Source: Verrucomicrobium sp. BvORR034 (GTDB lineage: Bacteria; Verrucomicrobiota; Verrucomicrobiia; Verrucomicrobiales; Verrucomicrobiaceae). Taken from it: a stretch of 48,837 nt of DNA. Positions 10,689-44,378 of the stretch are shown here, one piece after another (position 1 is the stretch's first letter; each line of letters begins with the position of its first letter). The position numbers and the translations under genes were made by a program. Where the stretch lies: NCBI RefSeq assembly GCF_000739635.1, contig NZ_BATQ01000178.1, forward strand, positions 1 to 48,837, given 5' to 3'. The notes under the pieces were generated by a model. The model was not told the DNA's origin. It saw only the letters and a list, made by a program, of their open reading frames with translations, and did not search any database.

Positions 10689-10717
10689 TGTCATCGCCAA
10701 GAGGAGCTGGGCAGAGG

Positions 10718-12367: not shown

Positions 12368-12413
12368 GTGTGTTGGGCAAGACTTTGCCGCATTACCACC
12401 CGCTCTGACAACC

Positions 12414-12448: not shown

Positions 12449-12868
12449 CTACGGTACCGTCGCAGGCCCAAGCTTTTCCTTCCGGCCTGAAAGTTCCTTC
12501 CAGCGCCGATAGGTGTCCTGCTTGATCTTGTCGAACTCCGCGTTCTGCTCTGGGGTGAGGTGCTTGGCGATGTCGCTGTGCGTCACCTCGAGTTCGAGGA
12601 GGATGTTCTCCACCGCGTCGGCCACGATGCCATGGAAGCGCTCGCCGGTTTTGTCGAGAATGGGGCGGATCTCCTGCCGCTGCTCCGGAGTGAGCTTGAG
12701 CCGGCGTTGGAATTCGGCCATGCGAGCGTCACCCCAACGCTTCAGGGCAGAGCGCTCGGTCAGCGCCTTTTTCACCCCTTGGAGTGTGACCACAACACCG
12801 GACAGCGCACCGGCCCCAAAGATGGCGGTCATGCCGAGCACGAGTTTCCAGTGGCGGAGGAGTTTCAT
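12449..12868 (-). CDS. Spy/CpxP-like periplasmic LTxxQ protein, membrane-anchored
   Basis: The product is 139 residues. One N-terminal transmembrane helix or uncleaved signal (about 9-30) precedes a helical domain with two LTPEQ motifs (LTPEQRQEI and LTPEQNAEF), the hallmark of the Spy/CpxP/ZraP group of periplasmic chaperones and stress sensors. It is the third gene after an ECF sigma factor and a small membrane protein, separated from the latter by only 15 bp. That arrangement suggests it senses envelope or metal stress for the sigma factor, as CnrX does for CnrH in metal-resistance operons. The sensing role is inference. Confidence 0.7.
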   Translation of the reverse strand: MKLLRHWKLVLGMTAIFGAGALSGVVVTLQGVKKALTERSALKRWGDARMAEFQRRLKLTPEQRQEIRPILDKTGERFHGIVADAVENILLELEVTHSDIAKHLTPEQNAEFDKIKQDTYRRWKELSGRKEKLGPATVP

Positions 12869-12883
12869 GGATGAAGCGGCAAA

Positions 12884-13192
12884 TTAAGGAGCGGCAAACG
12901 TGTTCATGAAAGTACCCGCCAGGGCCGTGTCGCCGTTCCAAAGACCCAGGAGGAGGTCGTAGTTCAAAGCCACGGCAGCGAAGGTAATGGCCATGGCGAT
13001 GACGGCCCCGCGCCAGGCAAAGGTCTCCCGTGTGCGCCAGATGCCCGCCTCCAGTTCCGCCATGCCGGCCTGCCAGCCCGCCACCACGCGGGTGGCAAAG
13101 CCGTACGGCAGGGTCTCGTCCGCCGCCGGGGCCTGGGCCGCATGGCGGGCCAGCCGTGACCAAGGCGATGAGTTGCGAGGGGAGTCGTTCAT
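12884..13192 (-). CDS. Small single-pass membrane protein, putative anti-sigma factor
   Basis: The product is 102 residues with a soluble N-terminal half and one transmembrane helix (about 62-82, GAVIAMAITFAAVAL). A short periplasmic tail of about 20 residues ends in FAAP. There is no zinc-binding HxxxCxxC motif. It is transcribed directly after an ECF sigma factor (59-bp gap) and just ahead of the Spy-like gene. The position and topology fit an anti-sigma or sigma-operon membrane subunit such as CnrY; sequence alone does not prove this. Confidence 0.5.
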   Translation of the reverse strand: MNDSPRNSSPWSRLARHAAQAPAADETLPYGFATRVVAGWQAGMAELEAGIWRTRETFAWRGAVIAMAITFAAVALNYDLLLGLWNGDTALAGTFMNTFAAP

Positions 13193-13251
13193 AAAGTCTC
13201 TGTGTCTCTATTCTATATGGCGAATATCAATCTCAAGATCTGCGGGAGTTG

Positions 13252-13872
13252 TCAGACCACAGCCTTCTGTTGCCGGAGTTGGGGGGTGGATTCAAGTGCT
13301 TCCATGGCTTTGCGCAGCTTCCGTCGCGCACGAAAGGCTCGAACCTTCACAAGGGTGGCGCTCCACCCCGTGACGGCCTGCACCTCGGCCACTGACCGGC
13401 CTTCCATGTCTATCATGGTGAGCACCAGCCGATCCGCTGGCTTCAACGTTTCCAAAAGCTTATGCGCCAGCTCTCGTGCACTCACGGCGTCTCCTGAGCT
13501 GGCCTGGGAGTGGTCCTGCAAGACCTGATCCAGCACCTCCACCTCCTGCTCGCTGAGATCGGCCCAACGCAATTCCGGCCGGCGCTTCTGATGGCGCAAC
13601 GCATCCAGGCACGTGGTGACCGCCACTCGCGAAACCCAGTGCTCAAAAGGCATGGGTCCGCGCCATTGATCGATGCGGGCGAAGACCTTCATGAATACCT
13701 CCTGCGTGAGATCCTCCTCAGCGACGCGACGCGGCAAATGCCCGCGCACAATCCGAACCACTGCGGGATAGAGCAGTTCCACCATGGTGCGGGCCGCCGC
13801 CTCATCGCGATCATCCCGCACCCGTGCCACCAATGGGGCAAAATCGGGCGGAGTGTCACGAGCGGCAGGCAT
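13252..13872 (-). CDS. ECF RNA polymerase sigma factor
   Basis: The product is about 206 residues from the ATG at 13872; an in-frame ATG at 13896 would add eight residues. Region 2 is clear: LYPAVVRIVRG, then the EEDLTQEVFMKVF helix and WVSRVAVTTCLDALRHQKRR. Region 4 follows (LKPADRLVLTMIDMEGRSVAEVQAVTGWSATLVKVRAFRARRKLR), with the GRSVAEV/WSATLVKVR helix-turn-helix for the -35 element. It probably starts a three-gene operon with the membrane protein and the Spy-like protein. No autoregulatory promoter could be assigned. Confidence 0.88.
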   Translation of the reverse strand: MPAARDTPPDFAPLVARVRDDRDEAAARTMVELLYPAVVRIVRGHLPRRVAEEDLTQEVFMKVFARIDQWRGPMPFEHWVSRVAVTTCLDALRHQKRRPELRWADLSEQEVEVLDQVLQDHSQASSGDAVSARELAHKLLETLKPADRLVLTMIDMEGRSVAEVQAVTGWSATLVKVRAFRARRKLRKAMEALESTPQLRQQKAVV

Positions 13873-22710: not shown

Positions 22711-22717
22711 AGGGCCT

Positions 22718-23142
22718 GGGCCGGCCGGTGTAAGCCGGATTCTGTGCCTCCCGCGTTGCCGCAGAAGGTGGCGGTCATTTCTCTAGCCCGGGGCTTGCGT
22801 CCCGTGCTCCCCGCTTTGCGCGAGGTGCGACTAATACCCGGGGTTATCCCAACTCCTTGCGGAGCCGGTGCGGCCAGGGCGGGCCGTTTCCCCTGTTCTG
22901 TCTTGCACCGTGTGGGGTTTGTCCTGCCTCCTTCCTTTCAGTCGGAGCGGTGAGCTCTTACCTCGCCTTTTCACCCTTACCGCAGTTGCCCGCGGCGGTA
23001 TGTTTTCTGTGACACTTTCCGTGACCGGAAGCTTACGCCGCCAGCCCCCGCGTTTTCACACGGCACACTGCCCTGAGGTGTCCGGACTTTCCTCTCTCAA
23101 TTGCCTTGCGACATCTGACAGCGACAGCCTCCGACCGACCCA
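22718..23142 (-). ncRNA. rnpB: RNase P RNA, bacterial type A
   Basis: The catalytic RNA that matures tRNA 5' ends. On the minus strand the 5' part carries the conserved GAGGAAAGTCCGGAC (complement of 23079-23097). The 3' part carries GAAATGACCGCC and the tRNA-CCA-binding region ending ACAGAATCCGGCTTA (complement of 22731-22745). P1 pairs perfectly over 11 bp including G-U pairs: GGGUCGGUCGG (from 23141) with CCGGCCGGCCC (to 22718). This sets the ends and gives about 425 nt, a normal type A length. Open frames drawn across it are spurious. Confidence 0.96.
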
Positions 23143-29825: not shown

Positions 29826-32800
29826 TCACCGCAACTTCCCATGCAGCTCAAACTTCTTCCCGGCGAGCGCCTCCTTGGCGGGTTGGCCCCAAACGGGCGT
29901 GGGCGTATAGTTCCAGTCCACAAGCATGCGGGGGCTGGCGCTGGGGTGGAAGCACCAGCCGGTCCAGTTCAACCGATGCTTCTGGATCAGCCCCAAAATG
30001 TCGGGCACCCAGGTCTCAGCATTCTCCTGCATCTCATGCGGCATGAAGTCCATCTTCTTGGCATCGGCACCCACTTCTCCCAACAGGATGGGATACTTCT
30101 CCGCGGCATCAAGCAGGTACTTCTGCCACCCGCGCTTCCAGGGATAAATATGACAGGCATAGATGATGCCCTGGCCACCTTCGTCTTTGAGGCCGAATCC
30201 ATTGATGATGCCATCCAGCTGATAGGCGTAGTCCAGACCTCCTACGAGCACCATGTTCTTGGCCCCGGTAGAGCGCACGGCGTCCAGCATGGCCTGCATG
30301 CCGGGTGACTGGAAACCATGCTTGTTGTGCAGCTTCTCCTCGGGAGTGAGGAAAGCATCCTCATCGCCGTCTTTGCGTTTCTCTTCCACGAACCCGCCAT
30401 CGCGCCAGACCTCCCAGGTGACGCCGTGAGGCTCGTTCATCAGGTCAAAAATCAAGGCGGGATGGTTTTTGTAGCGCTCAGCCGCATCCTTCCAGAAGTC
30501 CAGGAACTCCTTCCGCGGTGCGCGGTAGCGGTGCAAATCCAGCACCACATACGCGCCACGATTTGACGCCAGCGTGATGACTTGATCTACGACCGCACGA
30601 TAGGCTTTGCCACCGTCTTCGAGGTCTTTGCCAAACCAGTAGTCGTCTTTGATGGGCAGGCGGATCACGTTGCCCTTCCATTCATCAATTGCCACCACCA
30701 CGGACTTGTACACCTGCTCTCCGCGCAGGCTCCACTCCAGGCTGGGCACGTTCAGGCCCTGGAGCCAGACTTCCTTGCCTCCGTCCACCGTGACAATGCG
30801 GTTGCCCTCGGCACGGATCGCCGGGGGCCACTTGGCCTGGTTGGGCTCTTCAAGGGGCACACGAGATTTCTCCGCCAGGATCTCGCGCTCCTTTTGCTTG
30901 GCGAGGAGCACATTGGCATCGGTAGGCTTGAGCAGGATGTTATCGAGGTCAAAGCTGCCGCTCTTCACTTCAAACAACGCGGGCATGACCACTACGGATA
31001 CCGCTTCTGCGGGCACCAGGAACTCGGTCCGTTTTTCGACCCAGCCATCTGTGTCCTTTTGAGAATACGGCGGGGCGGGCTTGCTTGGCAGCGTCTTGCC
31101 GTCAGCGCCTTTGAACTCCAGCATGATGCGCGCATCAAACCAGGGCTTGGGGCCTTTCTTCAATCCGGTGATGCGTTGCTTCCAGGTCATCTCCAGGGCC
31201 GCCGCGCCTTCCGGCACCGGACAGTCGCGAAAGAGAAGCACGGTTTTGCCTGGCGTGAGACTGGTAAGGCGGATGAAGCGGTTCCCATCGCTCTCTTCCT
31301 TCTCCCAGGAGATGCCGCCGCCTTTGCCCCAGCCTTCGGGCGAATCCTTCTTTTTGTTCTCAGTCTCAAAGTTGCCGTTGCTGAGGAGGGTGCCTTCCTT
31401 GGCCAGCAAAGCCGCCGCCTGCTCACGACGTTTTGCCGCGACCTTGGCATCCATCTCCGCCTTCTTGGCGGCCCGTTCAGCATCGGCCTTCTTCAGCGCC
31501 TCAATCTGCTCCGGGTTCAATGGAACAACACGAATCTCGGCGAAATCGAGACGTCCCGACTCCGTCTGGAAGAGGCTGGGCATCATCTGCAGGGCCGCGA
31601 CGCCCTCTGGCACCATGTAAGTGCGACTGATCTCTGTCCACTCCGCCGCCCTGGTGGAGAAGACAATGGGGGATGGCGTGGGTTTCACCTGCTCCCGCGC
31701 CTGGTTCAGGAAATGAAACATGGCCCGTGCATCATTCCAGCTCTGCTTGCCCTTCTTGACGTCTGCGGTGCGATACTTGAAAGCCACTTCGATCCCCAGC
31801 ACGCCTGCCGGGATGGGGACTTCACGATAGGCAGAGAGCATCTTGCCGGACTCAGTGGCAGTGATGCGGAAAAATGGCTTGCCTGCCTCATCCTTCTCCC
31901 AGGAAAGACCTGTGCCCTTGCCCCAGCCATCCGGCCAGGAGTCGCCATCGGCATCGAGCGTGAAGTCGCCATTGCTAACGAGATTTGTCTTCGGCGCAGG
32001 TTCCTGGGCGTTCACGCCCATCACGCCCACACACATGAATGCAAGAAGCGCGGCGCACCACGCAGGTTGCCAGGAAGACCGCGTCCCCCTGGGCCGGCTC
32101 CGGCGAAAGGCGGCGGCAATCAAGGCCGCAAACGCCATCAAGGCCCGCGATGGCTCAGGAACCGCGGCGATGGAGATGGTGCCCTGCGAGTGCAGTTGGG
32201 AAGTGTCCCACGCCAGACCCATGCCCGCCAGGAGACCGTCCACACTGGAGCTGAAAGCGAAGCTCCCGGAGGTCCCGGAGACCTGCGACCAGTCGATCAG
32301 CTTCCAGGTATCCCCCACCGCCCAGGCGGTCATGGTATCGGCCGCGTCCACATGCAATGCCGCACCGGAAGCGATATCCACAAGGCCCTGACCGGTGCCG
32401 AAGAGCAGCAGGTCTGCATCCACCCCCACGATGTTATTTCCCAATCCATCGCCGCTGCCGCCAAAGAGGTCAAACTCCAGCCGGGAGGTGGAGCTAAAGG
32501 TGATGGTGTCCCCGCGCAGTTCGAAATCTGCTGCCGCAGGCGTGGGCAAGGTGGAATCGCCCACATCCAGCAAGCCGTGAAAAGTCAGGCTCTTGCCCGC
32601 AGCGGCGACCACGCGCCCCGTGCCTCCCAGAGTGGCCCCCGCACTCACGGTGAGGTTGCCCAACCCGGTGCCGGAACCCGTAGTGTTGTTCACCAGCAGG
32701 CGGCCTTGGTCCACCGTGGTGGCACCTGTGTAGGTGCTGTCGCCTTTGAGCGCGAGGGTGCCAGCCCCGGTCTTGTTCAAGCCTCCGGCAGCAGTGGCAT

Positions 32801-35066
32801 CCGTGAGGGAGGTTTCCACCGTGAGGTCGGCGGCGGCCGCACCATCGCCGATGTTGAAGGTGCGGGTGCCGTCGAGGCGTACCACCCCCTGATTGGCATC
32901 TGCAGCATTCGAAGTGGCGATCTTCACCGTCTCCTGGTTGCTGGTATTGCCGTTGAACGTGATGTCTCCGCCCAGCGTCAACTGGGCCCCTTTGTTGGTG
33001 GCATTGCTGTTCACGATAATGGCGGTGTAGGCACCAGAAGCAACGTTGTTGATGATCAGTTCCTTCAAGGAGGTGAGGCCGGTAAAGGTGGAGGTGCTGG
33101 AGGACTCCTTGGCGCGCAGCACTCCGCCGGACAGCGTGGTGGTGCCCAGCACGGTGATATCTCCTCCCGCATTCATGCCCAGCTCACCGTTGGTGAGGGT
33201 GGCATTGCCGTTGATGTTGAAAGTGGCATTGCTGCCGTGGTTGCCGAAGGAGCCGCCGTTCATGGTGAAGTTGTTGATCGTCTCGGTGTGGTTGTTGTTG
33301 CCGCTGCTTGAAGTGCTGTCCATCCAGAAAGTACCGGCGTTAATGGTGACACTGGCGGTGTCTGCGATGGCATTGCTGTTCTTGAGCAGGGTGCCGCCGT
33401 TCATCACCAAATCGGTCGTGAGACCGGTATTGGCCACGGATTTGTTGAGGCGAAGGATGCCGCTGTTCAAAGTGGTGGTGCCCGTGTAGGTGTTAGCCTC
33501 AGAACCGCCCAGCACAATCTGCCCGGTGCCGCCAAAGGTGACCCCCTTGCCGCCATCATTGGTGATGACGCTGTTGATCTGGAGAGGGGCGTTCGTATTG
33601 CTGTTGTTGACGCCGTTGGTGAAGGCCAGGATGACACCCTCCTGACCATTGAGGTCCAGGGTGGCCACGCTGAGGAGCATCACATCCGTTGCTGCGGCGG
33701 TGGTGACCGCTTGATTGGCGAAGATCACGCCGCTGTGAACCCGCAGGGTGGCACCAGCACCGGAGATGGTGACGCCAGTGTTGGTTCCTGCACCTGTGAG
33801 ATTGAACGACAGCGAGTTGATCGAGGTCACACCGGCCCCGAGAGTTATGTCCTGCGAGGCACTCCCCGAGGTGCGGGTGTACAGCACGTTGTCCTGCTGG
33901 GTCTGGCCGCTGACGATGGCGGCGGTGTATTCTGTGCTCGTGTTCAACAACCGCACACCCTTGTCGTCATCATAGGTGACCAGCCCCGTTCCAGAACCTC
34001 CCGTGGTGGTGGCACCGTACACGCCTTTCAGGATGCCAACGGTAGATGACCCCACCGCCCCGCTGCCAGCGAGATCAGGAGTTTCATCGAGCATGAGGTT
34101 CGAGGAGTCCGCCACGAGGTCTGCTGCAACGTTCACTCCGAGATTCTGCCCCCGGACCAGCAAGGTGCTGCCCGCCTCCCGCACCAGCGTGCCTGCAGTG
34201 AGCCGCGTATTCTTGGCCGCATTCGGAGTGAGGGTCACGACGGCGTAGCCCTCCTCCGCAGTGAGGGCATCGGTGATGGTGTCGTTTGAGTTCGCTCCGG
34301 CATTTCCTGAGACGGTCAGGAGGACGCCATCACTGCGACCGACTCCGTTCAAGGTCACACTTTTTGCCCGGGTGACGCCCGTGTTTCCACTGGTGCTACT
34401 GTTGAATCGAAGGGTGGTCTGGCTGCCCCCATTGAACTTCACCAGGAAATCAGAATTGGCGGAACTACCGGCAGCACCGTTCAGGGAGAAGGTGCCGGAG
34501 AGAATCGTGGTGGAACCTTCATAGGTATTGGCACCGGAGAAGTTCAGCGTTCCACCGTTGGCGATGATGCCTCCGTTTGATATCGCATTGACGAACCCCA
34601 GCGTGCGGCTTGCTCCCACCGTGAAATTGCGGACCACGCCGCCGAGGTCGATGTTAAGAGCCTCGTTCGTACCGGTGGATCCAAAGAGGATGGTCGCACT
34701 GGCACCGGCGGTGTGCACGATGTCCCCTCCGAGCTTGAAAGTGCGATTCCCTCCCGTTCCCCGTAGCGTGATCCCTGAGTTGCCCGTGTAGTTGAAGGTC
34801 AACCCATAGCCCGGTGCCAGATCCGAGTTCACAGTAATCGTCTGTCCACCCGCCACCGCAAGCGAACTGTGCCACACTCCATTGATGGTGCTGCCCGCCC
34901 AGTTGCTCGTGTCGGAGTAAGAGTACGTGCCACCGGCAGTCGGGCTCCAGCCCGTCGTGGCCTGACCGCGAGCTGTAACAGCCCATGCTGACACCACCAA
35001 GGTCAGCGGAATCCCCAGAGCACGGATCAGCGTCCGGCGGCGCATATCATTGGTCTTGCTGTTCAT
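29826..35066 (-). CDS. Autotransporter-repeat protein with internal PEP-CTERM signal fused to a GH5 glycosidase
   Basis: The product is 1746 residues in one open frame. It has a signal peptide (about 1-35, ending ARGQA). Residues about 40-960 are Gly/Thr/Asn/Leu-rich with autotransporter-associated beta-strand repeats (GGLNKTGAGTLALKGDSTYTG is the clearest). Residues 969-973 are VPEPS, followed by a short hydrophobic stretch and RRSRPR, a textbook PEP-CTERM sorting signal that normally ends a protein. A second signal-like segment follows at once (CAALLAFMCVGVMGVNAQ, cut near 1021/1022). Two related beta domains follow (LVSNGDF and LLSNGNF starts), separated by a Lys/Glu/Ala-rich helix. Last is a GH5 catalytic domain (about 1430-1740) with Glu1545 in NEPHG and Glu1664 in GEVGAD. 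GH5 enzymes cleave beta-1,4 glucans or mannans. An operator-like inverted repeat lies about 105 bp upstream. Confidence 0.85.
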   Translation of the reverse strand: MNSKTNDMRRRTLIRALGIPLTLVVSAWAVTARGQATTGWSPTAGGTYSYSDTSNWAGSTINGVWHSSLAVAGGQTITVNSDLAPGYGLTFNYTGNSGITLRGTGGNRTFKLGGDIVHTAGASATILFGSTGTNEALNIDLGGVVRNFTVGASRTLGFVNAISNGGIIANGGTLNFSGANTYEGSTTILSGTFSLNGAAGSSANSDFLVKFNGGSQTTLRFNSSTSGNTGVTRAKSVTLNGVGRSDGVLLTVSGNAGANSNDTITDALTAEEGYAVVTLTPNAAKNTRLTAGTLVREAGSTLLVRGQNLGVNVAADLVADSSNLMLDETPDLAGSGAVGSSTVGILKGVYGATTTGGSGTGLVTYDDDKGVRLLNTSTEYTAAIVSGQTQQDNVLYTRTSGSASQDITLGAGVTSINSLSFNLTGAGTNTGVTISGAGATLRVHSGVIFANQAVTTAAATDVMLLSVATLDLNGQEGVILAFTNGVNNSNTNAPLQINSVITNDGGKGVTFGGTGQIVLGGSEANTYTGTTTLNSGILRLNKSVANTGLTTDLVMNGGTLLKNSNAIADTASVTINAGTFWMDSTSSSGNNNHTETINNFTMNGGSFGNHGSNATFNINGNATLTNGELGMNAGGDITVLGTTTLSGGVLRAKESSSTSTFTGLTSLKELIINNVASGAYTAIIVNSNATNKGAQLTLGGDITFNGNTSNQETVKIATSNAADANQGVVRLDGTRTFNIGDGAAAADLTVETSLTDATAAGGLNKTGAGTLALKGDSTYTGATTVDQGRLLVNNTTGSGTGLGNLTVSAGATLGGTGRVVAAAGKSLTFHGLLDVGDSTLPTPAAADFELRGDTITFSSTSRLEFDLFGGSGDGLGNNIVGVDADLLLFGTGQGLVDIASGAALHVDAADTMTAWAVGDTWKLIDWSQVSGTSGSFAFSSSVDGLLAGMGLAWDTSQLHSQGTISIAAVPEPSRALMAFAALIAAAFRRSRPRGTRSSWQPAWCAALLAFMCVGVMGVNAQEPAPKTNLVSNGDFTLDADGDSWPDGWGKGTGLSWEKDEAGKPFFRITATESGKMLSAYREVPIPAGVLGIEVAFKYRTADVKKGKQSWNDARAMFHFLNQAREQVKPTPSPIVFSTRAAEWTEISRTYMVPEGVAALQMMPSLFQTESGRLDFAEIRVVPLNPEQIEALKKADAERAAKKAEMDAKVAAKRREQAAALLAKEGTLLSNGNFETENKKKDSPEGWGKGGGISWEKEESDGNRFIRLTSLTPGKTVLLFRDCPVPEGAAALEMTWKQRITGLKKGPKPWFDARIMLEFKGADGKTLPSKPAPPYSQKDTDGWVEKRTEFLVPAEAVSVVVMPALFEVKSGSFDLDNILLKPTDANVLLAKQKEREILAEKSRVPLEEPNQAKWPPAIRAEGNRIVTVDGGKEVWLQGLNVPSLEWSLRGEQVYKSVVVAIDEWKGNVIRLPIKDDYWFGKDLEDGGKAYRAVVDQVITLASNRGAYVVLDLHRYRAPRKEFLDFWKDAAERYKNHPALIFDLMNEPHGVTWEVWRDGGFVEEKRKDGDEDAFLTPEEKLHNKHGFQSPGMQAMLDAVRSTGAKNMVLVGGLDYAYQLDGIINGFGLKDEGGQGIIYACHIYPWKRGWQKYLLDAAEKYPILLGEVGADAKKMDFMPHEMQENAETWVPDILGLIQKHRLNWTGWCFHPSASPRMLVDWNYTPTPVWGQPAKEALAGKKFELHGKLR

Positions 35067-35162
35067 GGATGACGTGAGGAAGTGCGAAAGAAGGAGCGAT
35101 TGCTTCCACCCATGGGGATCAGGCAGAGACGGTTTAAAATTACCTTCCGGCAGGCGAACTGA

Positions 35163-35182
35163 CTACCTAGCCAATCGGCTAA
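35163..35182 (-). promoter_or_regulatory. Putative regulator site upstream of the PATR/GH5 gene
   Basis: On the plus strand CTACCTAGCCA, then GGCTAA four bases after TAGCC, giving inverted repeat TAGCC-AATC-GGCTA (35168-35181). The same block occurs at 41534-41553. It lies about 100 bp ahead of the start at 35066 and just after the cassette's last gene. A NarL-type regulator is encoded nearby. Confidence 0.6.
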
Positions 35183-35197
35183 ACCTTGATGTCATGC

Positions 35198-35860
35198 TCA
35201 CGGACGGAACACACGGGCACGACCGGTGACGGGATCCACCTGCACGGTGCCAAAGTTATAGGGGATGCCGGTTTCAGGATTTAACGGTTCATGCTGCGAG
35301 AAAAAGGTCATGAACCAGTTGCCCTCGGGCGGATCGATCGGGCCGAGGTTGGTGCCACCACTGGGGCGGAAGACAAATCCCAGGCCATCTGATTCAGTCG
35401 TTTGGCCCGGCAGCGTTTCCTTGGTGAGAAAAAGTCCGGATCGGTTGGGATTGCCGTAGTCGAACAAGGTGGAACTCTCTCCATCAGCGGCAATGATGAT
35501 CGACTCCGGCAGATACCGCACATCCCCCTGTGGTCTGCCCTGGCCGGCGGCACCCGGCTCCATGACGAAAGTGCGAAAGGCACGGAACTGGAGATCCTGT
35601 GTGGAGGTATCCGCTGCAATCTTGTAGAAGCGCACCTCCACCTCGCAGTTGCGCGTCATGGCAAGCTGCCGGGCCGCGTTCAGTTCATCCATGATCATGG
35701 TCGTCGCGCGATTCAGGCTGGATGCTCGCAGCACGGACATCCCCAGCGGTGCCGCCACGGCCAGGAGGACGGCCACGATCACGCAGACAAAGAGCAACTC
35801 CACCAGGGTGAAAGCGGCGCAACGCCTGTGGGGCTTGAGTTGATGATGGACTCGATTCAT
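35198..35860 (-). CDS. Verru_Chthon cassette protein D (pseudopilin)
   Basis: The product is 220 residues. The type IV prepilin N-terminus reads CAAFTLVELLFVCVIVAVLLAVAAP, with cleavage expected before Phe and Glu at mature position 5; the usual Gly at -1 is Ala here. The hydrophobic helix is followed by a GspH-like globular domain. It is the last gene of the four-gene cassette, its ATG overlapping the stop of protein A (ATGA). It should be inserted in the inner membrane, processed by a prepilin peptidase and assembled into a pseudopilus-like structure. Name given from the four-gene context. Confidence 0.85.
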   Translation of the reverse strand: MNRVHHQLKPHRRCAAFTLVELLFVCVIVAVLLAVAAPLGMSVLRASSLNRATTMIMDELNAARQLAMTRNCEVEVRFYKIAADTSTQDLQFRAFRTFVMEPGAAGQGRPQGDVRYLPESIIIAADGESSTLFDYGNPNRSGLFLTKETLPGQTTESDGLGFVFRPSGGTNLGPIDPPEGNWFMTFFSQHEPLNPETGIPYNFGTVQVDPVTGRARVFRP

Positions 35861-38800
35861 GGAGCAAATCGGGTGACGCTGCGAACACGGAACTTATAAG
35901 GCCCGACCATGCCTTCAGGATCCAGCTCATCTGTGGAGGTCTTGCCATCAGCCTTCACCAGGGAGTCGGCATTGGGCTCCAGGTAACGCTCAACAATGAA
36001 GGCACCCCGAAACTCACTGGTCACGAGATCCCGACCGTCCACAAACTCGCCGGCTGTGGTTCTCCGCAAGGTCTTCAGTGCCTGCGCTTTCACATGCACG
36101 GTGAAGACATTCGACTTGGTGGTGAGCCGTGGATAGATGTGGCCATAGGGCTGCTCACGCACATTGTCCCCGGTGAGCTGATAGTCCTTCCACCACGTCG
36201 CCATGTCCGCATACTTCACACTCGCAGCGGGCTGGGCCGGGTTCACGCTCTTCCCAGGCACCAGATAGATGTCGCAGATCTCCGAGGCGGACCGGAAGAT
36301 GTCGCCTGCGGCGAAGCGCCTCTCGAATCCCGCCAGGGTTCCCTCCCTTTCATCGAGGTTCAAGGCATAACGATAGTCCGGCGTGGGTGCAGCGGCGGTG
36401 TTGTATTTGTATTTACCAGCATCACTGGCAGGAATGGCCATGATGCTGGTGGATTTCAGCACTGCCCTGACCGCCGTGGCCCGGGTGACGTAGGCAAAGG
36501 GGACCATCTGGTAGTTCATGTTTACTTTTCCTGCCGTGGAGAAGGGGTCGCTGATGGCGTAGGGCTCCACGATGGGCATGGTGAAGAGGTCTAGAAAAGC
36601 GTGATCTGGCGGGGTGTCGTACGGCGGGCCGGCGGGAGGACCGGTTACACCCTGTTGTTTCCCGAACCCAGGATGGGTGTCGCCACCCAGGGGATTGCGG
36701 CAGAACAACAGAGTCTGCCAGGGTTTGGCATCGGCAGGCCGGGCCGGATCAATGCCCGTGGGCAGGGAACCGAAGGCCACCGCGGAGGCAATCTGTCGGT
36801 TGGGTGAGAAGGATGCTCCGCTCTCCACCACCCCTGCTCCATTCACATAGCCCCCCTTGGCATAGTAGAGTCCGGAGGAGGACTGGGACTTGTTGGCACT
36901 CGCCTGGTCCGCAATGTTGATGTAGGGGCCGTCTGCCGTGCCACCAATACCCGTGTCCCAGTCACCAAGAGTCACGCCATCGGCCATGTACGCGCCATTG
37001 AGCCCGCGTGGAGCGACCGGCGCGGTGCTGTTGCGCTTGTTGTCCCCGCGGTTGGGGTCCAGATAAGGAGCGTTGGGGAGAAGTTTGCCGCGCACGTCCC
37101 CCGAGCCCCCGCTGCCAGCATAGAATCCATTCTGATTGCTCGTGTCTCCCGGCCCGGTCTGGGCGTCGATACGCAGGCTGTGCACAAGATTGGTCTCCGC
37201 CGTGACCCCGGGAGCATCATAAGGTTTGCCACCCAAAGCGGTGTCTCGTTCCCCATGACCTTCGAAGTAGTCCTCCGGGACTTCCCGCAGAGAAGCATAG
37301 ACCCGTAGGTCCCCTTTGGCCGGGCCGCCGTAGCGGGCTTCCACACTGCGAACCGTGTCGGTGTTGGTGATCAGGGGGAGCGGATTGTGTTTGCCGTCTT
37401 CCAGGATGCCGAAGCGACCGTTCTTCACAGCGGGGTTCGCGTAGCGGGCAATGCGATTGTCAAAGTTGACGTAGGCCGCCGTGCTCATGGTCGGACGGGG
37501 AAGGCCGGTCACCGCAGGAAACTTCAGCTTCAGCGTCTGCACCGGAACATTGGGCGAGGAGGCTGCGGCGATCTCAATGGTGATGGTGCCACCGTTGAAG
37601 TCGAACTTGGTGGCATTCACCTTGAAGTCCGCGGAGCAGAACGTGTAGTTTGTTTCCTCGTCCCCCTGGCCCAGGACCTTGGCGTTGGTGAAGGCGCCGG
37701 AGGCACTGTAGTACTGGGTGGCCTGCTCCAGCCCGGTCAGGGCAGTGGCATTGGACTGACCATCGAGGCCGGTCACCAGATTCCCCGCCAGACTGGGGAA
37801 GACCATGGGCGTGGTACCAGCCATGAAGGCGTCCATCCCCTTCACGGTGTAGCGCACGTGGGACGACCACACCGGCGGCCCCGGCGCCGGATTGAAGGGT
37901 TCCAGGATCAACACCGCCCGCATCTGGGTGGGATCCGTGTCACTGGAGGCATAGAAAACCAGCGCAGCCTCCGTGACCGTGGGAAATCTTCCAAAGCCCC
38001 GGGTGCCGTTGGGCAGAACCAACGGCACAATCTGCGACTGCGCTGGAATGAGGCGGTTGGGGTTAAAGGGGGCGTAGTAGTACGCTGGGTTTCCCGCCGT
38101 GCTGAAGGTGTTCACATGGCTGCGGACGAAGTCGAACATCTCCGTCAGAATCTGGTCCCTCGTAGCAGGATACTTGCCCTGCAGGCTGCCGCCCAGTCCG
38201 GGGATCTGCGCTTGCGTCATGGCCTGCAAGTAGGCGTAGAGCTCTTGATTCCGTGGCACTTCATCCCAATCCATGATGGGGCTCTGACTGCTGGCTTGGG
38301 CAAGCTGGGCCGAGGTGGTGAAGGTGTTGTAGCGCTGGAAGTAGTAAGGCTTCGGCGTGGCGCTCTTGTTGCCCAGCGTGGAGCAGAAGGCGATCAGCTT
38401 GTCCTGCGCGTTGCGGTTCACCGCCTCATGCGGCTTGTTCACGTCCGTCGTGTTAGCCTGGAGCGGCCAAAGCGTGATCCGTGGTTTGTTGAAGAGATTC
38501 ACCTCCGGTGCCCGGCTGGTGGTGGTGAGAAGGAATCGGGTGCGCTCGATGTCCTGCTCTGCAAAGGGGATGAAGGCACCGCGGCTGTTCTCCTGTCGCG
38601 GCACCCCCACCGTGCTGAACATGAGCTCGTCCACCGAGGCGTAGAGGCGGTCGGCATCCGTCACCAGTGGCAGCGTGCTGCCGGTCACTGAAGCCGTACC
38701 ACTGCGGCTGCCGCCATTCACCACGCGGGGGATGTAGCTGTAGATCCTCGCATTGTAGGTCTCCAGCGACTCCTCAGTGAGCGGCGGAAACACCGTGCTC

Positions 38801-39753
38801 AGGCAGGTCATGGCGGGGTGCCCGGGATAGCGCTGAAATTCGTTCTGCGCCGGCATGCGCAGGGCCAACTGCCGCTCGTAACCATCGGAGGTGCCTGCGC
38901 TGCCTGTTACCGATACCGTCCAGGGACGATCCCAGAAGGTGCCCTCAGAGGCGGTGTTGAGGTTGATCTTGCAGCTCTCATCGTCCGTCCAGAAAGCGAT
39001 GCGGCCCACGATGTGATTCAGCGTCCCATCCGGCAGCGGATCCCCGGCACCGGTCACCTTGCGTGACGTGGCATCCATCACTGCCATACGGCCGTCCTTC
39101 AACACGTAGAGCCAGCGCACCGGCATGGGCAGGGGATTGGTCTGGGAAGTGCTGGTGGCCACGATGGCGGCTCCAGAAGGAATGGTGGAATCGAGGTAAC
39201 AACCCTCCACCGGGGCCACCGTGCCCACGAGGGCCTCCGTCGCACCGTGATCCCGCGCGACCGCCCCGGGATGAATGACGGGGTAGTGGGCCACGGCTGT
39301 GCTCCCCCGCCCCACCCACACAGGAGCATTGAGATCCGTGTAGAGCGGAGTGTTCGTGGAAGCAGCCCAGTCCGCGGGAACCTCTTCGGCCAGCTTGGAG
39401 ACAGGATCGAAGGCTCCCCCCACTCGCATCTGACTGGAGGAATAGAGCTTGTAGGCAGCGGTGGCGTTGCCCGTGGCGTCAAACGTGCGGATCATCCCCG
39501 GCTGGGAGGCCCAGGCGAGAGAAGGTGCGCTGGTGGCATTCTGGACCTGGGTCACTACCATGCTGGCAGCGGAGTCTGCGAGCATACGGGCATCCGACGA
39601 GTACTCCTGGCTCTTGGCGGATTGATACTCCGTGGAGACGCTGGCCAGAAAGGTGACTACTAGAATGGTCAGCAGGGCAATGAGCGGCAGCACCACCACC
39701 AGGGCCAGACCACGCCGGGATAATCGCCGACGCGTGGAAGATCTCAATTTCAT
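35857..39753 (-). CDS. Verru_Chthon cassette protein A, very large PilX/GspK-like component
   Basis: The product is 1298 residues. The start at 39753 (MKLRSS) is chosen because the preceding gene's stop lies one base upstream; an ATG nine codons earlier lies inside that gene. The N-terminus has a basic patch (STRRRLSRRG) and one hydrophobic helix (LALVVVLPLIALLTILVVTFL) as in PilX/GspK minor pilins. The rest is a long beta-rich, Pro/Gly/Asn-containing periplasmic or extracellular region with no catalytic motif that I recognise. I recall the A protein as the biggest member of this lineage-specific cassette. It may form the tip or a substrate-binding part of the pseudopilus (inference). Confidence 0.85.
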   Translation of the reverse strand: MKLRSSTRRRLSRRGLALVVVLPLIALLTILVVTFLASVSTEYQSAKSQEYSSDARMLADSAASMVVTQVQNATSAPSLAWASQPGMIRTFDATGNATAAYKLYSSSQMRVGGAFDPVSKLAEEVPADWAASTNTPLYTDLNAPVWVGRGSTAVAHYPVIHPGAVARDHGATEALVGTVAPVEGCYLDSTIPSGAAIVATSTSQTNPLPMPVRWLYVLKDGRMAVMDATSRKVTGAGDPLPDGTLNHIVGRIAFWTDDESCKINLNTASEGTFWDRPWTVSVTGSAGTSDGYERQLALRMPAQNEFQRYPGHPAMTCLSTVFPPLTEESLETYNARIYSYIPRVVNGGSRSGTASVTGSTLPLVTDADRLYASVDELMFSTVGVPRQENSRGAFIPFAEQDIERTRFLLTTTSRAPEVNLFNKPRITLWPLQANTTDVNKPHEAVNRNAQDKLIAFCSTLGNKSATPKPYYFQRYNTFTTSAQLAQASSQSPIMDWDEVPRNQELYAYLQAMTQAQIPGLGGSLQGKYPATRDQILTEMFDFVRSHVNTFSTAGNPAYYYAPFNPNRLIPAQSQIVPLVLPNGTRGFGRFPTVTEAALVFYASSDTDPTQMRAVLILEPFNPAPGPPVWSSHVRYTVKGMDAFMAGTTPMVFPSLAGNLVTGLDGQSNATALTGLEQATQYYSASGAFTNAKVLGQGDEETNYTFCSADFKVNATKFDFNGGTITIEIAAASSPNVPVQTLKLKFPAVTGLPRPTMSTAAYVNFDNRIARYANPAVKNGRFGILEDGKHNPLPLITNTDTVRSVEARYGGPAKGDLRVYASLREVPEDYFEGHGERDTALGGKPYDAPGVTAETNLVHSLRIDAQTGPGDTSNQNGFYAGSGGSGDVRGKLLPNAPYLDPNRGDNKRNSTAPVAPRGLNGAYMADGVTLGDWDTGIGGTADGPYINIADQASANKSQSSSGLYYAKGGYVNGAGVVESGASFSPNRQIASAVAFGSLPTGIDPARPADAKPWQTLLFCRNPLGGDTHPGFGKQQGVTGPPAGPPYDTPPDHAFLDLFTMPIVEPYAISDPFSTAGKVNMNYQMVPFAYVTRATAVRAVLKSTSIMAIPASDAGKYKYNTAAAPTPDYRYALNLDEREGTLAGFERRFAAGDIFRSASEICDIYLVPGKSVNPAQPAASVKYADMATWWKDYQLTGDNVREQPYGHIYPRLTTKSNVFTVHVKAQALKTLRRTTAGEFVDGRDLVTSEFRGAFIVERYLEPNADSLVKADGKTSTDELDPEGMVGPYKFRVRSVTRFAP

Positions 39754-39754
39754 A

Positions 39755-40930
39755 TCAGTTCGCACTCCATTTGGCCTCACGCATCATGATCTCCGTGGAG
39801 AAGATCCGGTAGGTGAGGCGCGTGGTGTTTTTCGTGAGGTTGCCGGGCTCGGCATTGCAGATGTCCTCCACCGCACGGAGGTCGGCCTCCAGCGCGGCGG
39901 CATTGCGGAACAGGCCCGCGCCGGAGAAGTCGAGCACCGCAGGAGAAGTTATGCTGTCACCCTGGAGCCGGGTGGCAGAGGCTTCATCCAGCACCACCAT
40001 GACCACACGCATCAAGGGCGGCAGTTGATGATGACGGGAGGCATTCACCGATTGAGGGGGCAGCCCTGGGGCGGGTGCAGGCGGATGGGTGGTGAAGGTG
40101 TCACCGGGAAACGACGGATCTGCTCCGGCCCAGGCAGCATCATCGGTGGCGCTGCGGGGCACACGCGAGTTGTAGTTGTACTGCGGTGCCAGGGAAACTC
40201 CGTCTCCCTTGCCTGTGGGGGAATCTTCACGCGGAGACAGCTTGGGCAGCAGCACCAGGGCAATCACATTTTCCGCCAGCACCCGGCCCGTGGCCTCTGC
40301 ATGGTTCACGAACCAGTCCTGGGGTTTTCCCGTCCCAGTTTGATAGACGCCCAGCCGCTCCGTGCGCTGGGTCATCTCCATGAGGCGGTAGCGATAGCGC
40401 GGCCTGTAGCCGGCCGCTTCCCGCACCGGCTCAGGCACTGAGGCCTCATCACTGCCAAACTTTAGGAAATAACCACAGGCATTGAGAGAGGCGCGCAGGG
40501 ACTCGTGGGCTGCCGAGTGCCCCAGCGGGGCCTGGAAAAAGACGGCCTGCGTCTGGGTGGGCACCGCCTGCGGGCTGGCGGCCAGCAAGGTGCGCGCCTG
40601 TCCGGAGATGAAGTGCAGGTCCGAGAGGCGGTCGTACACCTGGGGCACAAACGCCGCCCGATCGGCCGCCGTCAGTACGGTGCGCGGACGGTTGGCGCTG
40701 TCGTAGTAGTCGTAGTAGGTGTTCAGCGTGGCCTGGCTGAGGGTGCGCGTCATGGACTCGAACGCTCCCCGCGCCTCCTGAAAGGACTGAATGCGCCCCA
40801 TGGAACTCTTCCAGACCTGGCTGGTCTGCTGCGTCATCTGGGCAACCACCGCCACCACCAGGGCAAGCACCACCACGGCGAGCATGAGCTCGACAAGCGT
40901 GAAGGCCCGGATGGAACGTCGATGGGGCAT
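39755..40930 (-). CDS. Verru_Chthon cassette protein C (pseudopilin)
   Basis: The product is 391 residues from the ATG at 40930; a TTG eleven codons upstream is also open. The prepilin signature is IRAFTLVELMLAVVVLALVV with Ala at -1, as in protein D. A GspJ-like minor-pilin body follows, with a helix (FQEARGAFESMTRTLSQATLN) characteristic of GspJ-type proteins. It is second in the cassette; its stop is one base before the start of protein A. The consistent Ala at the processing site in C and D, against Gly in B, may reflect the local peptidase or assembly order. Confidence 0.85.
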   Translation of the reverse strand: MPHRRSIRAFTLVELMLAVVVLALVVAVVAQMTQQTSQVWKSSMGRIQSFQEARGAFESMTRTLSQATLNTYYDYYDSANRPRTVLTAADRAAFVPQVYDRLSDLHFISGQARTLLAASPQAVPTQTQAVFFQAPLGHSAAHESLRASLNACGYFLKFGSDEASVPEPVREAAGYRPRYRYRLMEMTQRTERLGVYQTGTGKPQDWFVNHAEATGRVLAENVIALVLLPKLSPREDSPTGKGDGVSLAPQYNYNSRVPRSATDDAAWAGADPSFPGDTFTTHPPAPAPGLPPQSVNASRHHQLPPLMRVVMVVLDEASATRLQGDSITSPAVLDFSGAGLFRNAAALEADLRAVEDICNAEPGNLTKNTTRLTYRIFSTEIMMREAKWSAN

Positions 40931-40963
40931 GGCTTGGGTGCTAAAAATTGGGTGGAGGTGCAA

Positions 40964-41500
40964 CTACCGGCCGTTGTCGGGTACGAGGAAAGAAACTCTC
41001 CTCGCATCCGGGTTCTTGAGGATGTCCGCCTCCTTGCTGGTCCGCGGCCCCTGAGTGCCAACGACGCTCACCGTCACCAGCGCCAGCCGTGAGGCACCGC
41101 CTCCGGTGGGGAGGGCAGCCGATGGGGCTACCTGATAGGCCGCCTTGTACCGGGTGAAGGCGGGATTCGCGGAGCGCCCCCCTTGATCATCAAAGCACCA
41201 GGGCTCGGAAGCGGAGTCGGACTGCAACTGGGTCAGGCGGGAGAAGTCCGTCTGTTGCGCCGCATGGATCATCTGCTGAGTGATCTGACTGCACACGGTG
41301 GTGTCGATGGCCTGACGCGAAACATCCAGCCCCACCGGCAACAGGCCGAAGATGGTGACCATGGAAAACGAGACGATGCCCAGCGCAAGCGTCACCTCGA
41401 CCAACGAGAAACCCAAACGGGCACGACGGGAGACGCCTGGCCGGAAGGGCAGTCGCATGGCGCAACGTTTTACTTCATGGAATGTCACTGTGGACTTCAT
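40964..41500 (-). CDS. Verru_Chthon cassette protein B (pseudopilin)
   Basis: The product is 178 residues. The prepilin motif LGFSLVEVTLALGIVSFSMV has the canonical Gly at -1 and Glu at +5; this is GspI/PilV-like. The leader is long (about 29 residues from 41500); an internal ATG at 41458 would shorten it to 15, which is nearer the usual length. It is the first gene of the cassette. The 62-bp region upstream, shared with the divergent sensor kinase, carries the TAGCC-N4-GGCTA inverted repeat. Confidence 0.85.
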   Translation of the reverse strand: MKSTVTFHEVKRCAMRLPFRPGVSRRARLGFSLVEVTLALGIVSFSMVTIFGLLPVGLDVSRQAIDTTVCSQITQQMIHAAQQTDFSRLTQLQSDSASEPWCFDDQGGRSANPAFTRYKAAYQVAPSAALPTGGGASRLALVTVSVVGTQGPRTSKEADILKNPDARRVSFLVPDNGR

Positions 41501-41533
41501 GCTCGCAGTATGACATCCACACCCCGCTGCTGC

Positions 41534-41553
41534 CTACCTAGCCAGATGGCTAA
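41534..41553. promoter_or_regulatory. Putative regulator site between cassette and sensor kinase
   Basis: CTACCTAGCCA (11 bases identical to 35163-35173) runs into inverted repeat TAGCC-AGAT-GGCTA at 41539-41552. It lies about 40 bp ahead of cassette gene B and about 10 bp ahead of the annotated kinase start. Read on the minus strand it has the same orientation relative to cassette B as the other copy has to the PATR/GH5 gene. Confidence 0.6.
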
Positions 41554-41562
41554 TTATTTTGC

Positions 41563-43752
41563 ATGAGTTATGCAGATATGATGACGCACATGAAATATTC
41601 TGAAAGACTGGTGCGTCATGAAGCCGCTCGTCGTATGGCGGACTCCCGCTCGTGGCATGTCACTGGAATGATCGCATCTGTCTCTGCAACTGTATCTCGC
41701 ACTCTGTTCGTCTGGCTGGCCATGCTGCTGGTCGTGCCTTGGAGCGGGCAGATTGCGCACGGGGCGGAACCGCCTCTCACCTCCATCATCAGCATTCGTG
41801 CGCTGACGGCTGAACAGGCCGCGAAGCGACTGCCGGTGTTGGTGGATGCCACCGTGACTTTTCGCAACTCACGCCAGTCCAACTTGATCGCCAACGATGG
41901 CCGCGAGGGCATCTATGTGGCTGTGCCAGAAGGAATGGGCACCGAACTCAAACTGGGCAGCCGCATCCGCATTGAGGGGGTGACTCAGCCCGGCGGATTC
42001 CTGCCCATCATCGAATGCCGCCACATCACCCATCTGGGCGATGGTGCGCCGCCACCGCCAAAACGCATCGATGCTGCAGAACTCTTTTCGCCCTCGTTGG
42101 ATTGTCAATGGGTGGAGGTGGCAGCGGTGATGACCGGCGTGTTGTGGCATGACAACTCGCTGGTCATCACCGCGGAAATTTCAGGTTGGACCGTGCGACT
42201 CCTCGTCCCCACGGGTGAAGATGCCGTGCAAAAAGCCTCCCAGCTGATGCAGCGGCCCGTGACCATCCGCGGCGTGGTGGGCAGTGTCTTCAACAGCCAG
42301 CGGCAGCTTGCCGGACGGCATTTCTTTGTGCCCAGTTTTGATCAGATCGTCCCCTCTGAGGCTCCTGCTCCAGAGGGAGAACCCCGGCTGAGCCCGGTGA
42401 ATGAACTGCTGCGCAGCGACTCCAACTCGAGCACGCGGGTGAGGGTGCGCGGCGTGGTGACGCACACCACGGATGACGGCCTCTACATGCGGGGGGATGG
42501 CGGGAGCATCTTTGTCCATACGGCGGCAAAGGGCATCGTACTGGGCACCCGGGTGGAGGCGGAAGGTTTTGCCGCAGTGGCCCCGTTCCGTCCAGTGTTG
42601 CGCGCCACCAGGGTCACGCCACTGAGCATCGCGATCCCGCCTCAACCTCAGGTGCTGAACCTGAATGACCGGCAGCTCGGCACCCAGCAGGCAGAGCTGG
42701 TCACCGTGGATGCAACGGTGCAGGCGCAGCGGGACGGACCCAACCATGAAAGCACGCTGCAATGCCGCACGGGAGATTGGTTCTTTGAAGCAACACTCCC
42801 GCCCCGCAGTGATCCGTATCCCCGGTATGCACCGGATACACGGCTGCGGCTCACGGGCATCTGTGAACTGACGACCACACGCCCCCTTCCCTTCAGCGAG
42901 AGCGTGGACGGCTTCCGTCTGCATCTTCGTGGCGGGAACGATGCAGCCATCATCCAGCACCCGCCCTGGTGGACGCTACGGCGCACGCTCTGGGCCCTGG
43001 GCATTCTGGGTGCGGCGTCGCTGGTTTTCCTGGGCTGGGCGGCCTTGCTGCGCCAGCGGGTGACGGAGCAGACGCGCATCATCGGCACCCAGATCGAACG
43101 CTCTGCCGTGAAGGATGAACGCGAGCGCATTGCGCGAGAACTGCACGATACCATTGAGCAGGAGCTGGCCGGACTTTCCATCCAGCTTCGCAATGCACGG
43201 CAACGCATCGCCACAGCCCCGGAACAGGCCAGTCAATCGCTGGGCCTGGCAGAGCAGATGCTACGGCACTGCCGCGAAGAGGCACGCACCTCCATCCGCG
43301 ATCTGCGAAGCACCGCCCTGGAGCTGCGCGGTCTGCATGGAGCACTGGAGGAGATGCTCACCCCCCTGGCCACCGAGGCGGGGGCGCACTTCTCCCTGGA
43401 GGTGAAGGGAGAACCTTACCATCTGGCCGGGCCTTCGGAAATTCACCTGCTGCGCATCGCTCATGAAGCCGTGGCCAATGCGGCACGCCATGCCTCTCCC
43501 CGTCTCATTCAGGTGAAGATACAGTTTACTCCTGAAACCGTATCCCTGGAGATTGAGGATGATGGCTGCGGCTTTGATACCAACGCCCCTGCGCCGCGGG
43601 GTCACTTTGGCATGCTGGGCATTCGCGAACGCGTCAACAAGCTGCAAGGCACGATCCAGACGCATTCTGAACCCGGCAAGGGCACCCGCATTCACGTGGT
43701 GGTGCCTTCTGAAGTCGCCAAACGCTCCAACGGTTCCACTCCCCACTCATGA
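41563..43752 (+). CDS. NarL-family sensor histidine kinase with large periplasmic domain
   Basis: The product is 729 residues. A signal/anchor segment at about 46-64 (LFVWLAMLLVVPW) is followed by a periplasmic region (about 70-465) of three beta-rich, OB-like modules (RVRVRGVVTHTTDDGLYMRG is one). One transmembrane helix follows (about 475-498), then the HisKA_3 box ERERIARELHDTIEQEL with phospho-acceptor His528. The HATPase domain has HEAVANAARHA, DDGCGFD and GMLGIRERV. Starts at 41635 or 41668 are plausible alternatives that would clear the operator. It overlaps the response regulator by ATGA and diverges from the cassette. Confidence 0.9.
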   Translation: MSYADMMTHMKYSERLVRHEAARRMADSRSWHVTGMIASVSATVSRTLFVWLAMLLVVPWSGQIAHGAEPPLTSIISIRALTAEQAAKRLPVLVDATVTFRNSRQSNLIANDGREGIYVAVPEGMGTELKLGSRIRIEGVTQPGGFLPIIECRHITHLGDGAPPPPKRIDAAELFSPSLDCQWVEVAAVMTGVLWHDNSLVITAEISGWTVRLLVPTGEDAVQKASQLMQRPVTIRGVVGSVFNSQRQLAGRHFFVPSFDQIVPSEAPAPEGEPRLSPVNELLRSDSNSSTRVRVRGVVTHTTDDGLYMRGDGGSIFVHTAAKGIVLGTRVEAEGFAAVAPFRPVLRATRVTPLSIAIPPQPQVLNLNDRQLGTQQAELVTVDATVQAQRDGPNHESTLQCRTGDWFFEATLPPRSDPYPRYAPDTRLRLTGICELTTTRPLPFSESVDGFRLHLRGGNDAAIIQHPPWWTLRRTLWALGILGAASLVFLGWAALLRQRVTEQTRIIGTQIERSAVKDERERIARELHDTIEQELAGLSIQLRNARQRIATAPEQASQSLGLAEQMLRHCREEARTSIRDLRSTALELRGLHGALEEMLTPLATEAGAHFSLEVKGEPYHLAGPSEIHLLRIAHEAVANAARHASPRLIQVKIQFTPETVSLEIEDDGCGFDTNAPAPRGHFGMLGIRERVNKLQGTIQTHSEPGKGTRIHVVVPSEVAKRSNGSTPHS

Positions 43753-44378
43753 AAAGAAAAATCCGCGTTCTGGTTGTCGATGATCACGCGATGATGCGCC
43801 TGGGCCTGACCGAGGCCATCTCTGGCGAACGTGACATGACCCTGGTGGGTGAAGCCAGCAACGGTACCCAGGCAATCCAGCTCTACCGTGAGCATCAGCC
43901 CGATGTGGTAACTATGGATTTCAAGATGCCAGGGCAGGATGGAGCGGAGATCACAAAACAGCTGCGGTTGGAGTTCCCCGATGCTCGCGTCGTCCTGCTG
44001 ACCGTATTCGAAGGCGAAGAAGACATCTGGCGGGCCGTCCAAGCGGGCGCGTCAGGCTATGTCTCGAAGTCCGCCGAGGTGGAGGAACTGCTGGAGGTGG
44101 TGCGGAGAATTTTTGCCGGGGAACAATACTTCTCCCCAAACGTGGCGGCGAAGCTTGCCGCCCGACAGGCGAGAAATGCGCTCACGCCGCGTGAGCTCCA
44201 GGTGCTGCGCCACATTGTGGCGGGGTACAGCAACAAGGAAATCGCAGCGAAGCTGCACATGTCCGAAGCGACGGTGAAACTGCATATTTCAAACACCCTG
44301 GACAAGCTAAATGTCGCCGACCGCACTCAAGCGGCCATTGAAGCCGTGAAACGGGGGATTGTGCATCTGGATGACTGA
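43749..44378 (+). CDS. NarL/FixJ-family response regulator
   Basis: The product is 209 residues. The receiver domain has Asp11/Asp12, phospho-acceptor Asp57 (VVTMDFKMP), Thr85 and Lys107, all as in active receivers. The LuxR-type HTH at about 145-205 reads LTPRELQVLRHIVAGYSNKEIA and ATVKLHISNTLDKL. It is coupled to the sensor kinase. By position it should control the divergent pseudopilin cassette and, through the shared inverted repeat, the PATR/GH5 gene (inference). Confidence 0.93.
   Translation: MKRKIRVLVVDDHAMMRLGLTEAISGERDMTLVGEASNGTQAIQLYREHQPDVVTMDFKMPGQDGAEITKQLRLEFPDARVVLLTVFEGEEDIWRAVQAGASGYVSKSAEVEELLEVVRRIFAGEQYFSPNVAAKLAARQARNALTPRELQVLRHIVAGYSNKEIAAKLHMSEATVKLHISNTLDKLNVADRTQAAIEAVKRGIVHLDD

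Follow-up and report, generated by a model that had tools for sequence, protein, structure and literature searches.

A rare inverted repeat ahead of a pseudopilin cassette and an adjoining PATR/GH5 gene as the probable operator of a neighbouring NarL-type regulator in Verrucomicrobium

What, if anything, couples the expression of a set of pseudopilin genes to that of the giant, putatively exported protein encoded beside it? The question is raised by a 48,837-nt stretch of DNA from Verrucomicrobium sp. BvORR034 (the window, whose coordinates are used throughout; the whole genome, 8.58 Mb, is labelled G000). Here a Verru_Chthon cassette, in the order B, C, A, D, runs down the minus strand from 41500 and is followed by a gene whose product combines PATR repeats with a GH5 domain; a sensor kinase gene and a response regulator gene lie on the plus strand, divergent from B. 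An earlier note on this DNA had proposed that a short inverted repeat, present ahead of both B and the PATR/GH5 gene, places the two under the control of the neighbouring regulator. Comparison across genera supports this proposal, and we consider it probable that the two 20-mers are operators of the NarL-type response regulator, through which it would co-activate the cassette and the GH5 protein.

Both copies of CTACCTAGCC-N4-GGCTAA are exact, at 35163-35182 (site 1) and 41534-41553 (site 2). They are intergenic, as the earlier note had described, lying, by the mechanical list of open reading frames (ORFs), in a 131-bp gap that separates D from the giant gene and a 62-bp gap that separates B from the kinase ORF, and their orientation relative to the downstream minus-strand gene is identical. 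The impression that the sequence occurs nowhere else proved to hold far beyond the window: exact TTAGCC-N4-GGCTAGGTAG has two copies in the whole genome. The window contained the exact pattern twice, against no occurrence in every one of 100 dinucleotide shuffles. When up to three mismatches were allowed, the genome yielded 21 matches (2 exact, 1 with two mismatches and 18 with three), and the reversed pattern, used as a control, yielded 71. Within BvORR034 the two sites have flanks of 21% identity, and a conserved one-sided flank, GRTAGKCAG, is found only on the gene side of the palindrome.

The locus recurs in a genome of another genus, G004 (~5.9 Mb), whose kinase and cassette A protein are 62% and 69% identical to their counterparts in the window. 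Gene order is as in BvORR034, with the regulator and kinase, the divergent B-C-A-D cassette and a 739-aa GH5 protein, and TTAGCCATTTGGCTAGATAG is present in both equivalent gaps, ~6.4 kb apart as in BvORR034. These are the only two places in the G004 genome at which the exact palindrome occurs. Comparison of the two genera over a 27-nt block that includes the palindrome gives 85% identity at the B site and 81% at the GH5 site; the flanks of the block are 15% and 25% identical, respectively. One letter is specific to each promoter and is kept in both genera, giving GGCAG before B and GTCAG before GH5. Because this one-letter difference persists, each site appears to have been conserved separately, not copied from the other.

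Outside Verrucomicrobium, conservation of both sites at the orthologous locus was thus found in one genome, from one genus. Among congeners, G045 and G136 carry the two sites without change, and each site sits in a longer invariant block; G179 (76% complete) had neither a cassette A match nor the motif. Orthologues of cassette A (at least 69% identity, E up to 1e-250) were present in 4 of 68 family genomes, and all four carry the kinase-regulator pair and both sites. The motif is therefore not absent upstream of orthologous cassettes, though three of these genomes are close relatives. Apart from that of G004, kinase matches outside the genus reached at most 44% identity in the 68 family genomes and 45% in 386 genomes of the order.

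We then considered the regulator. The earlier note had taken the genes divergent from the cassette at site 2 for a complete NarL-type kinase/regulator pair, and the domain assignments bear this out, as both domains of each protein (Table 1) exceeded their gathering scores. The best solved-structure matches of the regulator were VraR and NarL, and it fell under the cut-off of every NCBIfam model among the matches listed (25 of 120). The G004 regulator and all three from Verrucomicrobium share one recognition helix, SEATVKLHISNTL, and the helix-turn-helix (HTH) region is 86% identical. An alignment of 26 rows contained 21 others (20 genes) that differ from this helix and one row (L128) that was unreadable. 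The regulator matched 37 stretches of its own genome; in an alignment of the 30 that had loci, the closest helix among the 29 others agreed at 11 of 18 residues. An unusual helix beside a rare motif fits the expectation for a local regulon, as a correlation seen in two lineages.

Table 1. Positions of the sites, genes and putative promoter elements in the window.
Feature	Position	Strand	Sequence or evidence
Site 1, putative operator upstream of the giant PATR/GH5 gene	35163..35182	-	TTAGCC-GATT-GGCTAGGTAG
Site 2, putative operator upstream of the B-C-A-D cassette, between the divergent B and kinase genes	41534..41553	-	TTAGCC-ATCT-GGCTAGGTAG
-35-like TAGTCA, overlaps end of site 1	35160..35165	-	putative; 4/6 letters of TTGACA; GTCAG also before G004 GH5 gene
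-10-like TAATTT, 17 nt past -35-like hexamer	35137..35142	-	putative; 3/6 letters of TATAAT
-35-like TAGGCA, overlaps end of site 2	41531..41536	-	putative; 4/6 letters of TTGACA; GGCAG also before G004 B
-10 position TCATAC, 17 nt past -35-like hexamer	41508..41513	-	putative, weak; 2/6 letters of TATAAT
Sensor histidine kinase, NarX/NarQ type (HisKA_3 + HATPase_c)	41563..43752	+	PF07730, PF02518
NarL-type response regulator, proposed activator	43749..44378	+	PF00072, PF00196; recognition helix HMSEATVKLHISNTLDKL at 44256-44309
Verru_Chthon cassette protein B, pseudopilin	40964..41500	-	TIGR02598 over cut-off
Verru_Chthon cassette protein C, pseudopilin	39755..40963	-	TIGR02599 over cut-off
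Verru_Chthon cassette protein A, 1307 aa	35857..39780	-	TIGR02600, 1570 bits
Verru_Chthon cassette protein D, pseudopilin	35198..35860	-	TIGR02596 over cut-off
1746-aa protein, PATR repeats and GH5 domain, putatively exported	29826..35066	-	PF12951, PF00150, TIGR02601

Wider searches bear on how far the motif extends. In 288 genomes of the order, exact TAGCC-N4-GGCTAGGTAG was found in four, with two copies in each of three Verrucomicrobium genomes and one in G278, although this pattern cannot detect G004, which has GATAG; the reversed control gave one match in each of four genomes. Phylum-wide, TTAGCC-N4-GGCTAGNTAG was found in 3 of 387 genomes (reversed control, five singletons). Pairs were confined to BvORR034 and G004, with a singleton in G573, so the motif is not one that is common at random positions. 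A scan of an 84,980-species collection, from which records near the window may be left out, returned for TAGCC-N4-GGCTAGRTAGKCAG two sites in Verrucomicrobium sp. BvORR106 and one match in an ORF of an archaeal metagenome-assembled genome (MAG). We set the singletons aside as further sites: those of G278 and the archaeal MAG lie inside mechanical ORFs and that of G573 between ORFs, and the sequence examined around them (6.5, 8 and 3 kb, respectively) contained no recognisable cassette, kinase or regulator.

The bare palindrome, TAGCC-N4-GGCTA, has one more exact copy in the BvORR034 genome (G000:C157:11052). Together with copies at G136:C26:6835 and G045:C1:1789129, it belongs to a palindrome with 7-bp arms, ACTAGCC-N4-GGCTAGT, located ~10 bp past an uppS-like gene (uppS named by eye) and before a gene for a sigma-54-type response regulator. 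A wider regulon that would include this copy and a G045 copy inside an ORF was set aside, as the GGTAG flank is absent and G004 is without such an exact copy.

Orthologues of the GH5 protein were present in 16 of the 386 order genomes, BvORR034 included, and the full association was seen in the three Verrucomicrobium genomes and G004, with the pair and GH5 only in G206. In 11 further GH5-orthologue neighbourhoods, some on short contigs, profiles recognised no kinase-regulator pair or complete cassette; one (L169) has a lone D-like ORF.

These features suggest how the locus might work. A stimulated kinase would phosphorylate the regulator, and a regulator dimer would bind TAGCC-N4-GGCTA, abutting a poor -35 element (TAGKCA). 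Acting as an activator and not as a repressor, the bound regulator would recruit RNA polymerase, and transcription would start from a weak -10 element ~33 nt off the palindrome centre. One promoter would direct the B-C-A-D cassette and the other the adjacent GH5 protein (PATR-GH5 in BvORR034), and a part of the machine and its presumed cargo would be made together. Site 2 possibly acts on the divergent kinase and regulator genes too. On this model the one-sided CTACC flank may be the -35 element, and a dyad centre at about -44 would hint at the layout of a class II activator promoter whose -35 is poor. The best common -10-like column of the four promoters, at palindrome centre+33, consists of TAATTT, TCATAC, GATAAT and TAACAT (14 of 24 letters).

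Several observations weigh against this model. The four genomes represent two lineages, three of them being close (intergenic identity 90-94%). The -10 column is weak: its members have 3, 2, 5 and 4 of the 6 letters of TATAAT, a runner-up at centre+31 reaches 13 of 24, and its p of 0.015 comes from mononucleotide shuffles over a range that we chose. A generic promoter scan gave nothing at site 1 or site 2, which is unsurprising for an activator-dependent promoter, yet is not evidence for one. In G206, a related pair is divergent from a GH5 orthologue, with no cassette, and the gap contains no TAGCC palindrome; the helix there, SESAVKLYISNML, differs. The copy of the palindrome core that follows uppS is kept in three Verrucomicrobium genomes without the GGTAG flank. 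Finally, site 2 resembles a terminator when read on the plus strand, and its leader is predicted to fold more stably than shuffled sequences (z -2.61).

With only two lineages and three close genomes, co-occurrence cannot separate this regulator from some other factor inherited with the locus, and linkage is the main reason for naming the neighbouring regulator. The sites could accordingly be real operators to which another DNA-binding protein, or a global factor, binds. We regard this as unlikely. Many sites would be expected of a global factor, and the genome has two exact copies; the correspondence between helix and motif favours the neighbour over any other binder, as does the adjacency of site 2 to the divergently oriented kinase and regulator genes.

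The element might instead act as RNA: the 5' leader would then contain a hairpin of 5 bp, its tetraloop variable, ahead of the conserved GRTAGKCAG. A like orientation at both genes would be expected of such an element, and the hairpin is present in both predicted folds. The better-than-shuffled folding of the site 2 leader points the same way, but for site 1 the leader shows no such advantage over shuffles (z 0.49), and no Rfam family was found there at gathering score. The stem letters are identical in four promoters of two genera, with no compensatory change, and the loop varies. An invariant stem with a varying loop favours base-specific recognition over RNA, and the -10-like column downstream, weak as it is, counts mildly in the same direction. 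We therefore consider an RNA element improbable.

Could the hairpins be transcription terminators? Site 1 starts 15 nt past the D stop codon, and the plus-strand character of site 2 would agree with such a role. The genes on either side of site 2, however, diverge from it, and none in the locus reads into it. In the minus-strand gene sense, both hairpins lack a trailing T-run, and the conserved GRTAGKCAG flank would be left unexplained, making this account very improbable. Even for a motif noticed after the fact, coincidence or a recently copied, functionless promoter fragment can hardly be entertained, given the dissimilar site flanks in BvORR034 and the recurrence of the pair at both cognate places in the other genus amid flanks that have diverged to background level.

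Having argued for operators of the neighbouring regulator, we turn to the genes that they would control. The tandem A, B, C and D proteins all scored above the curated cut-offs, identifying the set as a Verru_Chthon cassette; our literature searches turned up no paper on this cassette, its regulator or its operator. For protein B the probable start is M15 (41458), a residue conserved without exception in the 14 aligned B proteins, and its leader would then be ~40 nt. Likeness to known pilins was assessed across cassette members. The GspK model matched 16 of 19 A proteins, in the window's protein at residues 23-93. The 18 C proteins matched ComGE (16), GspJ (13) and HpsC (11), the 14 B proteins PilV (6), XpsI (4) and GspI (3), and the 16 D proteins GspH (16) and ComGD (15). 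For the window's own proteins, scores were below the curated Gsp cut-offs (GspH, 19.0 bits against 80; GspJ, 17.1 against 64.85; GspK, 28.4 against 130; GspI unmatched), and matches to ComGE, HpsC, PilV, XpsI and ComGD were likewise under theirs. When profiles were compared with solved structures, C and D had N-terminal matches to pilins, B had no such match and A yielded nothing meaningful. Pfam returned nothing decisive on A.

Among Gsp models of type II secretion, D resembles GspH, C GspJ, A GspK and B GspI. Cassette A differs in being ~4 times longer than the GspK model (1307 residues against 307 positions), and C matches the competence pilin ComGE, and B PilV, in more members than GspJ and GspI, respectively. 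Because competence and other pilin models fit C and D about equally well as Gsp models, we offer the GspHIJK reading of the cassette as a suggestion. A secretion core could come from elsewhere in the genome, in which 15 secretin and 14 T2SSE-type stretches were counted.

The 1746-aa protein has the appearance of two proteins fused in frame, a PATR protein with a PEP-CTERM-like end and a separate secreted GH5 protein with its own signal-peptide-like stretch. By eye, it has an internal PEP-CTERM-like segment (VPEPS, a hydrophobic stretch and RR) and a second signal-peptide-like stretch; no PEP-CTERM model was among its matches (Pfam, E up to 0.001; NCBIfam, E up to 0.01). BvORR034, G045 and G136 all keep an open frame across the junction (about residues 968-1027), where differences are in excess at third positions. 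G004 has the GH5 half alone (739 aa, PF00150) at the equivalent place.

The kinase probably starts near 41668 (M36), since a 22-bp deletion in G045 shifts the frame upstream of M36 and the G045 kinase ORF has 690 aa. On the kinase side of site 2, positions 41560-41619 contain two more dyads, TGCAT-GAGTT-ATGCA and ATGACGCAC...GTGCGTCAT, the second of which has one mismatch in G045 and G136; by eye, neither was seen in G004. Elsewhere in the window, a bacterial RNase P class A RNA gene occupies 22713-23142 on the minus strand.

The cassette has many relatives in its own genome, where cassette A is above cut-off at 21 loci (for example L059-L077; pieces in one frame counted as one locus). Several of these adjoin very large or PATR proteins, and the gene orders seen include A-B-C-D, B-C-A-D, B-C-D-A and D-B-C-A. 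We looked for a dyad common to the intergenic gaps of the other cassette stretches, with gaps taken from mechanical ORF calls (stretches L066 and L068 overlap). None was found at 19 of the 21, and the remaining two have different dyads: one CCCGC dyad pair at L069, and a perfect 18-bp palindrome, CGTCCCGCATGCGGGACG, present twice at L061 (G000:C160:10300-30200). The L061 copies, at 15523 and 15937, are 414 bp apart and flank a 132-aa ORF downstream of, and beyond, another cassette. L062 (G000:C189:1-18000) has, at 439-13292, a further cassette with a divergent HisKA_3 kinase and NarL-like regulator, along with a GH16 enzyme and a PATR-like protein, and no common dyad of the kind searched. Relatives of the kinase-regulator pair were also seen in other genera (39-43% kinase identity). 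Those at L118, L121 and L128 adjoin very large proteins with GSDH, PA14 or Big domains, L128 having a PATR protein as well, and that at L126 adjoins a tricorn-like peptidase and a cassette.

Taken together, these data permit a broader and much more tentative picture, which we think possible but doubtful. The cassette might be an exchangeable pseudopilus tip, each such tip adapting a common type II secretion core to a single giant exported protein encoded next to it. In this picture A, B, C and D would replace GspK, GspI, GspJ and GspH, with A enlarged to ~1300 residues as the cargo receptor, and the NarL-type pair would co-induce tip and cargo through matched operators at their genes. Were this so, a genome with 21 cassette A loci would amount to a rack of cargo-specific secretion cartridges. 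The operators themselves would provide a regulatory handle on this cassette family, and co-regulation of a pseudopilin set with one adjoining glycoside hydrolase suggests that each cassette perhaps serves its own cargo.

How does the proposed regulon compare with known systems? NarL-family regulators bind short inverted repeats. The BvORR034 regulator resembles the NarL/VraR/RcsB class in its receiver and LuxR-type HTH domains and, by prediction, in a short dyad near -40 as its operator. We know of no characterised member of this class with TAGCC-N4-GGCTA as its site.

The closest parallel for exported proteins is the PrsK/PrsR system of Proteobacteria, as described by Haft et al. (2006, PMC1569441). 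There, an NtrC-like regulator is associated with a PEP-CTERM cis-regulatory site whose motif includes a sigma-54 -24/-12 element. Of 167 proteobacterial PEP-CTERM genes, 99 have this motif ahead of them, and it is confined to Proteobacteria among the species that those authors discuss. The same text expects that more regulators and DNA motifs of PEP-CTERM/EpsH systems are still to be found (PMC1569441). The BvORR034 gene pair does not fit that regulon in its regulator, which has a receiver and a LuxR-type HTH and no sigma-54 interaction domain. If the PEP-CTERM-like segment of the giant protein is real, the operator described here would be a candidate for such a further regulator and motif in Verrucomicrobium. 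The likeness to PrsK/PrsR as described there lies in a DNA motif, found ahead of genes for exported proteins, to which a two-component system is tied by its phylogenetic profile; the differences lie in a NarL-type regulator and in two exact sites, one of them before a pseudopilin cassette. A local two-component regulon is of a known kind, and what is new, as far as our searches show, is the proposed operator with its pair of targets, together with the coupling between a Verru_Chthon cassette and its neighbour.

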